From Halanaerobiaceae bacterium (GTDB taxonomy: Bacteria; Bacillota; Halanaerobiia; Halanaerobiales; Halarsenatibacteraceae), in NCBI GenBank assembly GCA_003553225.1, contig PWDW01000178.1, forward strand, positions 1-39,355: a stretch of DNA of 39,355 bases, given 5' to 3'. The notes under the pieces are model-generated. The model was not told the DNA's origin. It saw nothing but the letters and a program-made list of their open reading frames with translations, and made no database searches. Below, piece by piece: positions 32,786 through 39,129 of this stretch (position 1 is the stretch's first letter; each line of letters opens with the position of its first letter). The position numbers were made by a program, and so were the translations under genes.

Positions 32786-32827
32786 TTATATACCTGTATT
32801 TTATAATTTAGGCTGGAGGTTGTATTG

Positions 32828-33184
32828 ATGAAGGGTATTAGAGGGGCCATTACAGTTGGGAAAAACAGCAGACAGCAGATTATTGATTCGGCACAAATTT
32901 TATTAAAAGAAATATTTCAGGCCAATAATGTCTCCCAAAAAGAAATAGTGAGCATTATTTTCACATGTACCGTAGACCTTGATAGGGCCTACCCGGCAGT
33001 CGGAGCAAGACAAATGGGGCTGGACTATATTCCCCTGATGTGTTATCAGGAAATGAAAGTTCAGGAGTCTCTGGCCAGATGTCTGAGGATTATGGTATAT
33101 ATTGAAAGAGACTGCAGCCACCGTGATATTGAGCATGTTTATCTGCGGAAAGCAAAAAAATTGAGGCCTGATCTTGTTGAATAA
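32828..33184 (+). CDS. aroH: Chorismate mutase, AroH class
   Basis: AroH rearranges chorismate to prephenate, committing carbon to Phe and Tyr. The 118-residue product is a monofunctional enzyme of the Bacillus AroH trimer type. It has the start MKGIRGAITV with the active-site Arg, IIFTCTVDLDRAYPAVGAR, PLMCYQEMKVQESLARCLRI (Glu, Cys and Arg of the active site) and a C-terminal HVYLRKAKKLRPDL. ATG 32828 is preferred over the adjacent TTG because GGAGG is then 8 nt upstream. Confidence 0.95.
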   Translation: MKGIRGAITVGKNSRQQIIDSAQILLKEIFQANNVSQKEIVSIIFTCTVDLDRAYPAVGARQMGLDYIPLMCYQEMKVQESLARCLRIMVYIERDCSHRDIEHVYLRKAKKLRPDLVE

Positions 33185-33229
33185 TCCAGAACAGGAAATG
33201 TCAAATCATCTATAACAAGGAGGCTAATT

Positions 33230-34258
33230 ATGATTGTTGTCATGAAAGACGGTTCAGATGATCAGGATATTAAAAAGATTACTGACCGTATAGAAGAAAT
33301 GGGATATACCCCTCATGTATCCCGGGGTGAAAAAAAGACAATTATTGGAATAATTGGTGATCTAAATAAAGATCTTAATCGTGAAGAAGTTGCTCAGTCT
33401 CTGGGTGCTTATTCTGAAATTGACCGTCTGGTTCCTATTCAGGAGCCTTACAAACTGGTGGGCAGATCGTTCAAAAAAGAAGATACGATTGTAGAAGTGG
33501 GAGATGTGAAAATAGGTGGTAAAAAGCTGGCCGTTATTGGGGGCCCCTGTTCTGTTGAAAGTGAAAAACAGATTGTTAATACTGCCCGGGCTGTCAAAAA
33601 AGCTGGAGGACAGATCCTGAGGGGTGGAGCTTTTAAACCACGCACCTCTCCTTATAGTTTTCAGGGTCTTCTGGAAAAAGGACTTAAATTACTTAAAACT
33701 GCTTCTGAGGAGACAGGACTGAAAATAATAACCGAAGTAATGGATCCCCGGGATGTAGAACTGGTGGCAGAATATGCTGATATACTGCAGATTGGAGCAA
33801 GAAACATGCAGAATTTTTATTTACTCAAAGAGATTGGTAAAACTGAGACCCCGGCTATGCTCAAGAGGGGTATGAATGCCACCTATAAAGAATTTTTAAT
33901 GGCTGCTGAATATATAATGGCCGAAGGAAATCATGATGTTATCCTGTGTGAAAGGGGAATTAGAACTTTTGAAGAATATACCCGTAATACACTGGATCTG
34001 CTCAGTATACCAATTACAGAAAAATTAAGTCATTTACCAATTATTATTGACCCCAGTCATGGTACCGGGGACTGGGAGCTGGTAAATCCTGCCGCCAGGG
34101 GTGCTGTAGCTATGGGTGCTGATGGTCTGATGATTGAAGTACATCCTGAACCTCAAAAAGCACTCAGTGATGGACAGCAGTCTTTGGATTTTGAAAAATT
34201 TAATCAATTAATGGAGGATATTAAAGTATTTGCTGATGCAGCCGGGCGGGAAATATAA
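33230..34258 (+). CDS. aroF: 3-deoxy-7-phosphoheptulonate synthase (DAHP synthase), type I-beta
   Basis: This enzyme makes DAHP from PEP and erythrose 4-phosphate, the entry to the shikimate pathway. The 342-residue product has an N-terminal ferredoxin-like regulatory domain (about 1-68) that in Thermotoga binds Tyr or Phe for feedback inhibition. The TIM-barrel catalytic domain follows, with GGPCSVES (104-111), [28 protein letters not shown] and [18 protein letters not shown] precedes the ATG. The stop codon overlaps the tyrA start by 1 nt. Confidence 0.96.
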
Positions 34259-35211
34259 TGACGGCCAAAGTAGGTATTATCGGTCTGGGCCTGATGGGGG
34301 GATCTCTGGGTCTGGCCCTGAAGAAATACCTGCCGGAGATAGAAAGACTTGGTAGAGATGTGGATGATGAAAATGAAAGTTATGCCCTATCAAGTGGTAT
34401 TATAGAGCAGAGATTAACCACAAGTAAAGTCCATCAGCTGGATTATATTTTTCTGGCAGTACCTGTAAAATCGACGGTTAAGGCTCTAAAATCTATTTCG
34501 CAAAACATAAACAAAAAGCATACTGTGGTAACCGATATGGGCAGCACCAAAGAGTATATCTGCAAAACAGTGGAAAAAGAGTTCCCGAATATAAAATTTG
34601 TGGGTGGTCATCCACTGGCCGGTGGTGAAAAAAGTGGTCCCCGGTTTGCCCGGGCTGATCTTTTTAAGAATAAAAATTATATAATTACAGCTGATATTCA
34701 AAAAAATCAGGAGGATAATAATTCTGCTGCTGGAAGTAAAAAGGAGTCAAAAGCAGAAGAAACTTCCTTGAATGAAATGTTTTTATCACCGGAGGTGAAT
34801 AAATTAACATCATTATTGACCTCTCTGGGCTGCAGTATCAGTTATTATACACCCAAAGAACATGACCACATGGTTGCCCTTACCAGTCACCTGCCTCATC
34901 TGGCTGCTTTTTCCTTGTTAGTTCAATACATAGAGCAGGAAAATTCATCTCCCCAGGGATCCTTAACTGATGGAGTGGGAACGGGATTTCTTGATTTTAC
35001 GAGGATTGGAGCCAGCAGTCCTGAAATGTGGCTGGATATATTTTTTACCAATCGGGAAAATATTATTAAAAAAATTGATGATTATATTAAAATTATGGAA
35101 AACTGTCAATCCTTTATCTCTGATAATAAACAGCAAAAAATAAGAGAAATTATGAATTTAGCCGGTAAAAAAAGAAGTGATATTGAAAAGGAGATTGCTG
35201 ATGAAAATTGA
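34258..35211 (+). CDS. tyrA: Prephenate dehydrogenase
   Basis: TyrA oxidises prephenate to 4-hydroxyphenylpyruvate using NAD. The 317-residue product has the Rossmann motif GLGLMGGSLGLALKK (9-23), VTDMGSTKEYI, GGHPLAGGEKSGP (116-128) and the helical domain with HDHMVALTSHLPHLAAF (202-218). It has no C-terminal ACT domain, so it is shorter than the B. subtilis protein. A hydrophilic, low-complexity stretch (about 147-175, rich in Lys, Glu, Asn and Ser) interrupts the catalytic domain. The start overlaps the end of aroF (TAATG), and the end overlaps aroA by 11 nt. Confidence 0.94.
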   Translation: MTAKVGIIGLGLMGGSLGLALKKYLPEIERLGRDVDDENESYALSSGIIEQRLTTSKVHQLDYIFLAVPVKSTVKALKSISQNINKKHTVVTDMGSTKEYICKTVEKEFPNIKFVGGHPLAGGEKSGPRFARADLFKNKNYIITADIQKNQEDNNSAAGSKKESKAEETSLNEMFLSPEVNKLTSLLTSLGCSISYYTPKEHDHMVALTSHLPHLAAFSLLVQYIEQENSSPQGSLTDGVGTGFLDFTRIGASSPEMWLDIFFTNRENIIKKIDDYIKIMENCQSFISDNKQQKIREIMNLAGKKRSDIEKEIADEN

Positions 35212-36490
35212 AATTAGCAGACAAAATAACCTTTCAGGAGAAATCAAGGTTCCCGGTGATAAATCTATTTCTCACAGGGCTGTAATTTTAAGTTCACTGG
35301 CCCGGGGGCAAAGCCGGATTAGAGGTTTTTTAGAAAGTGAAGACTGTCTGCACACGGTTGAAATATTCCGTCAGCTGGGTATTAAAATTAATAAACAAAA
35401 AAAAGGAGTTTATACTGTTTCCGGAAGTGGTCTTGATGGTCTTCAGGAACCGCAGTCGGTTCTGGACTGTGGAAATTCAGGTACCGGAATGAGGATTTTG
35501 ACCGGTCTGCTGTCAGCTCAATCCTTTTATTCTGTTCTCACCGGTGATAAATCACTCTGTCAGCGTCCCATGGAGCGAATAATTAGTCCTTTAGAGCAGA
35601 TGGGAGCTCAAATATGGTCCCGACGGGGAGGTATGGCCCCCCTGAGTGTTAGAGGACAAAAGCTGGCACCTCTGAATTATGAACTGCCTGTAGCCAGTGC
35701 TCAGGTTAAATCTTCTCTCATTATGGCCGGCCTGGCTTCCGGAGAACCGCTAACAATTACAGAACCTGGTTTTTCACGTGACCATACAGAAAGAATGCTG
35801 AAAAACTCCGGAGTCCCTCTGGATAAAGAAAAACTAACAATTTCTCTTCCCGGAGGCCGGTATAAATTAACCCCCCTGGATATTAAAATACCGGGGGATA
35901 TATCCTCAGCTGCTTTTTTTATTGCGGCTGCACTTATTACTGAAAACAGCAGTATCATTTTGAAAAATGTTGGGCTCAATCCCACCCGCAGTGGATTTCT
36001 GGAAGTGATTGACAAAATGGGGGGGAGTATTGATATTCTCAATAAAAGAAAAACTGCCGGTGAGCCTGTGGGTGATCTTCAGGTCAAAAGCAGTTCTTTA
36101 AGTGGAATTGAAATCAGAGGTGATATTATACCCCGTTTAATTGATGAAATTCCTGTTATTGCTGTTCTGGCTGCACGAGCCGAGGGGAGAACATTAATTC
36201 GGGATGCTGAGGAATTAAGAGTTAAAGAAACCGACCGGATTGAGGCTATGGTCAATGAACTGTCCAAAATGGGAGTTAGTATTGCTGAATATGAAGATGG
36301 AATGATTATTGAAGGCCCATCTGATCTACAAAAAGGAGATTTATTCCGCAGTTATGGTGATCATCGTGTAGCCATGTCTTTAGCGGTGGCCGGTCTCTGC
36401 CGGAAAAAGAAAATGACCATCACTAACTGTGAGTGTATTAATACGTCTTTTCCGGAATTTGAGGAAGTATTAGCTGAATTAATAAATTAA
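35201..36490 (+). CDS. aroA: 3-phosphoshikimate 1-carboxyvinyltransferase (EPSP synthase)
   Basis: AroA joins PEP to shikimate 3-phosphate. The 429-residue product has PGDKSISHRAVILSSLARG near the N terminus, LDCGNSGTGMRILTGLLS, DKSLCQRPMERII, PGDISSAAFFIAAAL, RVKETDRIEAM and SYGDHRVAMSLAVAGL. The segment LDCGNSGTGMR has the GNSGTGMR form rather than the GNAGTAMR of glyphosate-sensitive enteric enzymes, as in other class II-like EPSP synthases. ATG 35201 is chosen because AAGGAG is 7 nt upstream; a longer frame would start inside tyrA. No clear terminator follows. Confidence 0.96.
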   Translation: MKIEISRQNNLSGEIKVPGDKSISHRAVILSSLARGQSRIRGFLESEDCLHTVEIFRQLGIKINKQKKGVYTVSGSGLDGLQEPQSVLDCGNSGTGMRILTGLLSAQSFYSVLTGDKSLCQRPMERIISPLEQMGAQIWSRRGGMAPLSVRGQKLAPLNYELPVASAQVKSSLIMAGLASGEPLTITEPGFSRDHTERMLKNSGVPLDKEKLTISLPGGRYKLTPLDIKIPGDISSAAFFIAAALITENSSIILKNVGLNPTRSGFLEVIDKMGGSIDILNKRKTAGEPVGDLQVKSSSLSGIEIRGDIIPRLIDEIPVIAVLAARAEGRTLIRDAEELRVKETDRIEAMVNELSKMGVSIAEYEDGMIIEGPSDLQKGDLFRSYGDHRVAMSLAVAGLCRKKKMTITNCECINTSFPEFEEVLAELIN

Positions 36491-36709: not shown

Positions 36710-36738
36710 TTGACAGTTTTTAATTTATATAGTATAAT
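36710..36738 (+). promoter_or_regulatory. Consensus promoter of the trp operon
   Basis: A perfect TTGACA (36710-36715), a 17-nt spacer and a perfect TATAAT (36733-36738). The predicted start near 36745 gives a leader of about 285 nt before trpE. Such a strong promoter fits control by attenuation rather than by initiation. Confidence 0.88.
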
Positions 36739-36758
36739 TCTTTAAAATAGAATTAAAA

Positions 36759-36819
36759 TAGATTAGAAGAGATGAGCCCAGTAGAGTAGAGTCTGGAGTT
36801 TAGATTGAGCAGAGCCGAG
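36759..36819 (+). promoter_or_regulatory. TRAP (MtrB) binding site: twelve NAG triplets in the trp leader
   Basis: NAG triplets start at 36759, 64, 69, 74, 79, 84, 89, 96 and at 36801, 07, 12, 17: eight GAG, three TAG, one CAG. Intervals are 5,5,5,5,5,5,7,5,6,5,5 nt. TRAP, an 11-subunit (sometimes 12) ring activated by tryptophan, binds 11 (G/U)AG triplets separated by 2-3 nt in Bacillus trp leaders. The array starts about 15 nt after the predicted transcription start and contains the 5' arm of the putative antiterminator (36788-36796). The TRAP gene is not in the window. Confidence 0.85.
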
Positions 36820-36834
36820 CAAATGTTTTCACCA

Positions 36835-36862
36835 CCGGACTTTTTTATAAGTCTGTTTTTTT
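36835..36862 (+). terminator. trp attenuator terminator 1
   Basis: CGGACTT (36836-36842) pairs with AAGTCTG (36849-36855) across a 6-nt loop and is followed by seven T. The 5' arm can instead pair with GAGTCTGG (36789-36796) inside the NAG array, so terminator and antiterminator are mutually exclusive. TRAP bound to the array would favour termination. Confidence 0.75.
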
Positions 36863-36965
36863 ATTATACCAGTAATTTTTAGGAATATATTGTTCCAGAA
36901 AGAACATGTGGTGAAAAACATTTATCTATTTGTTAAAAATAACAGACTCGAAATAATGATATCAG

Positions 36966-36997
36966 AACCGGGGCTCTCTTTGAGCCCCGGTTTTTTT
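36966..36997 (+). terminator. Strong terminator 2 directly upstream of trpE
   Basis: AACCGGGGCTC (36966-36976) and GAGCCCCGGTT (36982-36992) form a perfect 11-bp stem with a TCTTT loop and a run of T. It lies between the trp promoter and trpE, so it must be bypassed for trpE expression. GAGCCC at 36774-36779 in the NAG array is the exact complement of GGGCTC (36971-36976). Confidence 0.9.
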
Positions 36998-37028
36998 ATT
37001 GGCTCTCCTTCTGGAGGAGGAGATTAAT

Positions 37029-38558
37029 ATTAAAACATTTGCCGAGTTTAATGAACTGAGCAAACAGTATAATATGATTCCAATTAAAGAAGAGATTATT
37101 GCGGATACCAGGACCCCTGTTTCCCTGTATCAGCAGCTGGCAGAAGAAAATGATTACTCTTATCTTCTGGAAAGTGCCAGCAGTGGTAAAAGAGTGAATG
37201 TTGGTCGGTATTCTTTTATTGGGCTTAGACCGGAAAAAATAATTAAAAAAAGAAAAGAAAAAATAATTATTGCTGACAGCCGGGATAATATTATTGAGGA
37301 GGTACAGTCTAAATCATTAATTGAGTATCTTAATGAATTTTTAAATAAATATGATGTATATCAGATGGATGATTTACCTCCTTTTTCTGGAGGTCTGGTG
37401 GGTTATTTTGGTTATGAGATGGTGGCCGAATGGGAGAATTTATTTCATAGGGCAAAAGATCGCAGTTTGATGAAGAGCTCTGTTCCCTCTGCCCTGCTGG
37501 TTGTCTCCAGGCTGGTAGCCGCCTATGACCATTTAACAAAAAAAGTAAAAATTATAGATAATATTTTTCTGGAACCCAATTTAAACGATACTGAGAAAAA
37601 TGAGTTATTCCAAAATAGCAAAAAAAGAATTAAAAAGATTGTAAATCAAATAAGCACCCCCCGGCAGAATAATTATTTTTTCTCACAGGTCAGAAAAACC
37701 AGGACTGAACAGCTCTGTTCTAATACCCAAAAAGATGAGTTTGAAAACATGGTTCGGGAGGCCAAAAATTATATTAAACAGGGTGAAGTATTCCAGGTTG
37801 TGCTGTCTCAGAAGTTTTCTGTACCTACAGACCAGCTTCCATTTTCGGTATACCGGGCCCTCAGGGTCAGTAATCCTTCTCCCTATATGTTTTATTTAAA
37901 CTATCCTGAGATTAAATTGATTGGGTCTTCACCTGAGATTCTCGTACAGGTAAAAGAGGACCGGGTCATCACCCGTCCTCTGGCCGGTACAAGAAGGCGT
38001 GGGGATAATAATCAGGAAGATAAAATTTTAGAGGATGAACTTAAAAATGATGAAAAAGAAAAAGCTGAACATTTAATGCTGGTTGATCTGGGACGTAATG
38101 ATCTGGGAAAAGTATGTAAGTATGGAACCGTTCAGGTTCAGGAGCTGATGGGGATTGAATATTATTCCCGGGTTATGCATCTGGTATCTCAGGTAGAAGG
38201 CCAAAAAAAGGATGATTTCACCAGTCTTGATGTCCTGAAGGCTGTATTCCCGGCCGGCACTGTGTCCGGAGCACCAAAAATAAGAGCAATGGAATTGATT
38301 GATAACCTGGAAAAAGAATCACGGGGGGTATATGCCGGGGCTGTGGGTTATGTTGATTTTAGGGGTAATCTTGATACCTGTATTACCATCCGATCTTTTG
38401 AGTACAGGAAAGGAATACTTTCCACCCAGGTGGGAGCCGGAATGGTGGCTGATTCAACACCAGAACGGGAATATCAGGAGACCTTAAACAAGGCCCGGGC
38501 TCTTTTTGAAGCGCTGGAAATCACCAGAAAGGAGGCCCCCTATGGTCTTAATAATTGA
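37029..38558 (+). CDS. trpE: Anthranilate synthase component I, probable ATT start
   Basis: TrpE converts chorismate, with ammonia from TrpG, to anthranilate. The product (about 509 residues) has the N-terminal LLES motif linked to tryptophan feedback (YSYLLESA), then RYSFIGLRP. The chorismate-binding domain follows (PFSGGLVGYFGYE, SSPEILV, PLAGTRRRG, LMLVDLGRNDLGKV, FPAGTVSGAPKIRAMELI). GGAGGAGGAG (37013-37022) is spaced for ATT 37029, and homologous N termini begin about there. The only alternatives are TTG 36999, which sits in the terminator T run without a binding site, and ATG 37074, which has no good binding site and removes conserved residues. It overlaps trpG by 17 nt. Confidence 0.93.
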   Translation: MKTFAEFNELSKQYNMIPIKEEIIADTRTPVSLYQQLAEENDYSYLLESASSGKRVNVGRYSFIGLRPEKIIKKRKEKIIIADSRDNIIEEVQSKSLIEYLNEFLNKYDVYQMDDLPPFSGGLVGYFGYEMVAEWENLFHRAKDRSLMKSSVPSALLVVSRLVAAYDHLTKKVKIIDNIFLEPNLNDTEKNELFQNSKKRIKKIVNQISTPRQNNYFFSQVRKTRTEQLCSNTQKDEFENMVREAKNYIKQGEVFQVVLSQKFSVPTDQLPFSVYRALRVSNPSPYMFYLNYPEIKLIGSSPEILVQVKEDRVITRPLAGTRRRGDNNQEDKILEDELKNDEKEKAEHLMLVDLGRNDLGKVCKYGTVQVQELMGIEYYSRVMHLVSQVEGQKKDDFTSLDVLKAVFPAGTVSGAPKIRAMELIDNLEKESRGVYAGAVGYVDFRGNLDTCITIRSFEYRKGILSTQVGAGMVADSTPEREYQETLNKARALFEALEITRKEAPYGLNN

Positions 38559-39129
38559 TAATTATGATTCATTTACCTATAATCTGGTGCAATCTCTGGG
38601 TGAAATAGATAAACAGCTGTCCATTAGAGTTGTTCGCAATGATGAAATAAATATTGAAAAGATAAAAAAAATAAATCCCGGGCATATAATTATTTCTCCC
38701 GGTCCGGGCAGACCGGAGACAGCCGGAATATCACTGGAAATTATTGAAAAATTTTGTGGTGTATATCCGGTACTTGGGGTTTGTCTGGGACATCAATGTA
38801 TAGGACAGGCCCTGGGAGGAGAAATTATCCGTGCTGGTCAGGTATATCATGGAAAACCGGCCGATATTTTTTACAATGAAGATGAAAAGATATTATTCAA
38901 GGGGTTAAGCAATCCTTTCAGTGCTGCTCGTTATCACTCACTAATCATCAAAAAAAGCAGTATCCCGTCCAGCTTGAAAATTATAGCCCGAACTGCAAAA
39001 GGAGAGGTTATGGCCGTGGGTCACCGAGAATATCCGGTTTATGGTGTTCAGTTTCATCCGGAATCAATTTTAACCAAACCGGGCAAAAAACTGCTGGCCA
39101 ACTTTTTAAATATTGCTGATAAGCAATAA
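38542..39129 (+). CDS. trpG: Anthranilate synthase component II (glutamine amidotransferase)
   Basis: TrpG releases ammonia from glutamine for TrpE. The 195-residue class I amidotransferase has DNYDSFTYNLVQ at the N terminus, ISPGPGRPE, the nucleophile Cys81 (GVCLGHQCIGQALGG) and the His-Glu pair of VQFHPESI near residue 170. AAAGGAGG precedes the ATG, which lies inside the end of trpE. As in B. subtilis, such a protein may also serve folate synthesis as PabA; adjacency to trpE favours TrpG as the main role. Confidence 0.95.
   Translation: MVLIIDNYDSFTYNLVQSLGEIDKQLSIRVVRNDEINIEKIKKINPGHIIISPGPGRPETAGISLEIIEKFCGVYPVLGVCLGHQCIGQALGGEIIRAGQVYHGKPADIFYNEDEKILFKGLSNPFSAARYHSLIIKKSSIPSSLKIIARTAKGEVMAVGHREYPVYGVQFHPESILTKPGKKLLANFLNIADKQ

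Follow-up and report, generated by a model that had tools for sequence, protein, structure and literature searches.

A probable TRAP-controlled trpEG leader with predicted tandem terminators in a member of the Halanaerobiales

In Bacillus subtilis, the trp leader contains a G/UAG array that overlaps an antiterminator and is followed by an intrinsic terminator as well as by a TRAP-induced structure that hides the Shine-Dalgarno (SD) sequence (PMC4347634, PMC12288461). An array of NAG triplets lies upstream of trpE in the window, i.e. the whole stretch of 39,355 nt from a Halanaerobiaceae bacterium analysed here, and raises the question of whether this organism controls its trp genes by TRAP-dependent attenuation and, if so, by which structures in the leader.

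The array comprises 12 triplets (8 GAG, 3 TAG and 1 CAG) in the order TAG TAG GAG GAG CAG GAG GAG GAG TAG GAG GAG GAG. The intervals are 5, 5, 5, 5, 5, 5, 7, 5, 6, 5 and 5 nt; thus, nine of 11 are exactly 5 nt and ten of 11 are 5 or 6 nt, as had been reported for triplets and spacing in a preliminary description. Scored as a chain, with G/TAG triplets at intervals of 5-6 nt favoured, the array reaches 14.4, and all other chains on both strands of the window score at most 6. Upstream of the array is a sigma-70-type promoter that matches the consensus at 12 of 12 positions. The distance from the -10 box to the first triplet is 20 nt; relative to the start site, which is expected near 36745, the array begins at about +15, in agreement with the earlier placement of about 15 nt after the promoter. 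A strict search of the organism's own genome for five KAG triplets returned 0 matches because the window array includes one CAG, while a relaxed array search of the same genome returned the window array and only two weak, chance-like sites, i.e. no second strong array.

The genes downstream of the array are trpE and trpG for tryptophan biosynthesis (Table 1). trpB and trpA are located on a different contig and are followed by cmk-like and plsC-like genes (trpB, cmk and plsC named by eye). At the expected start of trpE there is no ATG, GTG or TTG; instead, an AUU at 37029 follows a strong SD sequence, GGAGGAGGAG, at 37013-37022. This AUU may be either a genuine, weak start codon or the result of an assembly error. 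The trpE start is mostly ATG in relatives, with an apparent CTG in L050, L051 and L053, which are three genomes of a single genus.

Table 1. Features of the trp region in the window.
Feature	Position	Strand	Remarks
aroH, DAHP synthase gene, tyrA, aroA	32825-36490	+	Directly 5' of trp promoter and leader
Promoter	36710-36738	+	TTGACA 36710-36715, N17, TATAAT 36733-36738
Extra isolated TAG	36748-36750	+	From sequence; 11 nt 5' of first counted triplet; possibly unused
NAG array	36759-36819	+	12 triplets
Antiterminator 2, 5' strand	36774-36779	+	Predicted; array GAGCCC; partner GGGCUC 36971-36976 in T2 5' arm
Antiterminator 1, 5' strand	36788-36796	+	Predicted; array segment AGAGUCUGG; pairs with 36835-36843, transcript end 36850
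Long hairpin enclosing T1	36821-36923	+	Arms 36821-36835 and 36908-36923; inverted repeats I7 and I9 plus predicted folds
Terminator T1	36836-36862	+	Predicted; 7-bp stem, 6-nt loop, U7
Terminator T2	36964-37000	+	Predicted; 13-bp stem, dG about -22 kcal/mol, U-tract; much stronger than T1
SD-sequestering hairpin	37004-37023	+	Predicted; UCUCCUUCUGGAGGAGGAGA; 8 bp, covers whole SD
trpE, anthranilate synthase component I	37029-38558	+	Pfam and NCBIfam TIGR00564; probable AUU start; start inferred from SD and relatives
trpG, anthranilate synthase component II	38542-39129	+	Contig ends after trpG

The genome contains a single mtrB gene (PF02081, E = 1.3e-36) at G000:C202:9593-9793, flanked by the C-terminal part of dnaE on one side and accD on the other (neighbours named by eye). 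The encoded TRAP can be aligned to solved TRAP structures over nearly its full length and keeps T25, T30, F32, E36, K37, D39, T49, T52, K56 and R58 (B. subtilis numbering). T25, T30, T49 and T52 are known as residues of the tryptophan pocket, and K37, K56 and R58 together with F32, E36 and D39 as RNA contacts. TRAP was found in 47 of the 59 genomes of the class Halanaerobiia. The preliminary description had pointed to TRAP attenuation outside the bacilli; this holds, but it is not a special trait of this organism, as 152 of the 299 genomes sampled from the phylum (about half) have TRAP, which, therefore, is far from restricted to bacilli. Among named genomes, the closest TRAP relatives are those of Halanaerobium and other Halanaerobiales. 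The supposition that the organism is a diderm Firmicute is supported by its placement in the Halanaerobiales, which are known as a diderm order (PMC5007114).

Among TRAP-bearing relatives, an array is present upstream of trpE at 39 of 39 loci, so that the 5-nt phase proposed as a mark of function does recur. At 35 of these loci the array is within 700 nt of trpE, with best scores of 8.6-17.3, and at the other four it is farther upstream. None of 13 loci of trpE-like paralogues has an array (maximum score 5.3). Similarly, NAG triplets extend over the SD sequence and start of trpP (PF17099) in all 28 TRAP-bearing genomes examined for this gene, while trpP of two TRAP-less genomes, both of one genus, has no array (scores 2.2 and 2.7). 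Members of families f10 and f11 of the class have mtrB shortly upstream of trpE, with the array in between, and in several Bacillota metagenome-assembled genomes outside the class the array is just after mtrB. Moreover, trpB has a leader with array and terminator in two genomes (G009 and G039) in which trpE was not found. That the arrays are TRAP sites is supported most strongly by these natural pairs of presence and absence. Together with mtrB, the trpE arrays of relatives support the earlier suggestion that TRAP attenuation probably operates in this organism.

Arrays at other positions were also observed. Seven loci (L034, L035, L062, L069, L071, L073 and L074) have two arrays before trpE, one at the attenuator position and one across or near the SD sequence or start of trpE, which suggests attenuation combined with direct blocking of ribosomes by a second ring. 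At L052, the only array at trpE overlaps the start. L066, L070 and L072 have arrays at the trpE/trpG junction, near the end of trpE, where TRAP may bind at the start of trpG as it does in B. subtilis. At L090 (G008), two successive arrays precede trpP, the first with ten triplets and the second with seven that overlap the start. In the complete Halanaerobium genome G022, TRAP is kept while trpE was not found; a start-overlapping array at its trpP (L147) may explain why TRAP is retained. Finally, a TRAP-like array of eight triplets (score 10.5) with a terminator is present on the reverse strand of L092 at about 1501-1694 (G030), and precedes two genes (named by eye), the first ferredoxin-like and the second aldehyde:ferredoxin oxidoreductase-like; we know of no such TRAP target in Bacillus. 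In B. subtilis, trpP (yhaG) and trpG have TRAP sites over the ribosome-binding site. The layout at trpP is the same in the 28 relatives, and several relatives have a further counterpart of these sites in a second array close to trpE or trpG; the B. subtilis trpP site has no counterpart in the genome family of the window, in which no TrpP gene was found.

Twelve triplets had raised the idea of a 12-subunit TRAP ring. This idea is unsupported, as the number of triplets is not conserved between relatives; the chains in their main arrays vary from about 8 to about 15 triplets and most often have 11. Moreover, a natural 12-subunit ring has already been described for TRAP of B. halodurans, and oligomer size is set by C-terminal residues (PMC3435397). 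The C terminus of TRAP in our genome, HGTMKSGKDM, has no clear match to the 11-mer or the 12-mer type. The TRAP family is common to both organisms; the natural 12-mer ring is the feature known from B. halodurans.

Between the array and trpE, two intrinsic terminators, T1 and T2, are predicted as well as a hairpin that would sequester the SD sequence (Table 1). Array segments are predicted to pair with the 5' arm of each terminator in transcripts that stop just beyond that arm; at T2, array bases next to GAGCCC take part as well. In the same long-range structure as antiterminator 2, the array sequence GAGUCUG at 36789-36795 is predicted to pair with CAGACUC at 36943-36949, and the long hairpin enclosing T1 would, in the folding model, bring the array near T2. 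The 5' arm of the SD hairpin is predicted to pair alternatively with the array at 36765-36778. Spacer randomization, in which spacers were redrawn from the pool of all spacers and every triplet was kept, gave arrays with a duplex to the T1 arm as strong as the real one in 30 of 1000 cases, i.e. the real duplex was stronger than 970. For the region 36924-36981, the real array was better than 985 of 1000 randomized arrays (15/1000), and for the arm of the SD hairpin the corresponding value was 48/1000. The transcript ending at 36981 folds at -60.5 kcal/mol compared to -51.6 +/- 3.6 kcal/mol for randomized versions, of which 2 of 200 were as low. Thus, at the level of sequence, predicted pairing and excess complementarity point to a putative antiterminator built from array bases and a terminator 5' arm, the formation of which would be mutually exclusive with TRAP binding.

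In relatives, nearly all leaders have terminators that separate the array from trpE. In 14 genera, array spacers are complementary to terminator 5' arms beyond randomized spacers (Fisher p = 3.3e-6; 7.2e-6 without the window), where the terminator nearest trpE was used at one hand-picked locus per genus and the p value is a guide, the genera being not fully independent. Most leaders of Halanaerobium have a T1 arm without excess complementarity to the array. TRAP is not known to read the spacer bases of the array; given their complementarity beyond chance, they appear to be selected to pair with terminators, as the attenuator model predicts.

In equilibrium folding, T2 forms with the array free or blocked (P = 1.00 in both), and the probability of T1 with a free array varies with the transcript end (0.25 vs 0.95). 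Equilibrium folding, therefore, fails to separate bound and free states for T2 and does not by itself reveal a switch, which must then operate kinetically. TRAP of B. subtilis gains the time for binding from pausing (PMC12288461). The computed accessibility of the SD sequence in the window changes from 0.58 to 0.50 only, and results for relatives are mixed. The predicted hairpin at 37004-37023 is nevertheless a plausible SD-hiding structure, and an equivalent exists in B. subtilis.

The genome has mtrB, and the trp region has the triplet array, a terminator before the first trp gene and trp genes downstream. In total, we consider it very likely that the window element is the TRAP-controlled leader of a trpEG operon, with attenuation by tandem terminators. 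We infer that TRAP binds the array, that binding depends on tryptophan, that both terminators are used and that translation is also controlled. When tryptophan is plentiful, tryptophan-bound TRAP would wrap the nascent array, which would then be unable to pair downstream, so that both T1 and T2 could form and end transcription ahead of trpE; in read-through transcripts, the released anti-SD arm would hide the SD sequence of trpE. When tryptophan is scarce, TRAP would remain unbound and array segments would pair first with the 5' arm of T1 and then with the 5' arm of T2 and the anti-SD arm, in a long-range structure for which the hairpin around T1 would serve as a bridge, allowing read-through and translation. 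More tentatively, a single array may serve three successive checkpoints, i.e. the adjacent T1, T2 by trpE that is countered by long-range pairing, and the trpE SD sequence, in an arrangement partly common to other genera of the Halanaerobiia and operating without anti-TRAP.

A search for anti-TRAP (rtpA, PF15777), which the preliminary description had recommended, recognized none. Matches in the organism's own genome were below the cut-off and in a 386-residue frame, as expected for DnaJ, and those in relatives were in frames of similar length except for one 78-residue frame in G040; the matches in frames of about 370-400 residues were rejected as DnaJ-like. rtpA is usually under the control of a Trp T-box. 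The genome has seven T-box leaders (G000:C11, C51, C248, C74, C48, C202 and C58; L100-L106), which precede argC, pheA, a symporter gene, ileS, thrS, ilvB and valS (named by eye), and none of the seven is at a trp or rtpA gene. A short leader frame at 36824-36883 (MFSPPDFFISLFFYYTSNF) is Phe-rich because of the U-tract of T1 and is probably meaningless.

NAG triplets are frequent in purine-rich DNA and weaker chains were seen in coding regions, so the array might be a purine-rich stretch that arose by chance. However, the maximum chain score in 40 simulated first-order Markov sequences of window length (39 kb) was 7.0, half that of the array, and the array position is kept across the class, with none at trpE paralogues or in TRAP-less genomes. 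The score relative to the simulations and the class-wide conservation exclude a chance origin, to which we give practically no credence. It is only slightly less improbable that the purine triplets are incidental and that a T-box or a Trp leader peptide regulates the leader. T-boxes are present in this genome and such trp attenuators are known elsewhere; however, an Rfam scan of the window gave no match, and thus no T-box (RF00230) in the leader, the T-boxes of the genome are all at other genes, the short leader frame has no Trp codon, and the arrays are conserved together with TRAP.

A third explanation accepts that TRAP binds the array and holds that control is mainly translational by SD sequestration, T1 and T2 being minor in tryptophan regulation. 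The 8-bp hairpin over the whole SD sequence, the complementarity of its arm to the array, the formation of T2 in both states at equilibrium and the start-overlapping array of L052 are in its favour. By contrast, nearly all relatives have strong terminators after the array and ahead of trpE, and the complementarity of their arms to the array exceeds chance. Moreover, the computed SD accessibility in the window hardly changes, and T2, if it were not regulated, would keep the operon shut off for most of the time. We regard predominantly translational control as unlikely, and favour attenuation by the tandem terminators.

Compared to the leader of B. subtilis trpEDCFBA, the layout of array, antiterminator, terminator and SD-hiding structure is alike, as predicted here from sequence alone. 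As in B. subtilis, there is a single mtrB gene and aro genes adjoin the trp operon; the aro-trp neighbourhood, which had been likened to the B. subtilis supraoperon, is real and similar in gene content but not in exact order. Unlike in B. subtilis, there are two predicted terminators instead of one, the stronger of which is about 145 nt after the array, beside trpE, and countered by predicted long-range pairing; the array has twelve triplets instead of eleven, trpG is inside the operon, mtrB is beside dnaE and accD, and no anti-TRAP was found. All ingredients are already known from Bacillus, and the tandem terminators are the most unusual feature of the leader. What is new is that a TRAP regulon is documented for the class, that tandem terminators are predicted together with a long-range antiterminator, and that both anti-TRAP and a Trp T-box appear to be missing. 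A literature search, in which subscription journals were poorly covered so that an earlier mention is possible, found no paper on TRAP in Halanaerobium or the class.

TRAP has been studied almost only in Bacillus, and the Halanaerobiia are a natural comparison set. The class offers near-universal TRAP, targets at trpE, trpB and trpP in varied layouts, genomes without both TRAP and its sites, and no recognized anti-TRAP. With this set, one can ask which elements of the mechanism in Bacillus are ancestral and by what means cells that lack anti-TRAP deal with the tryptophan signal.
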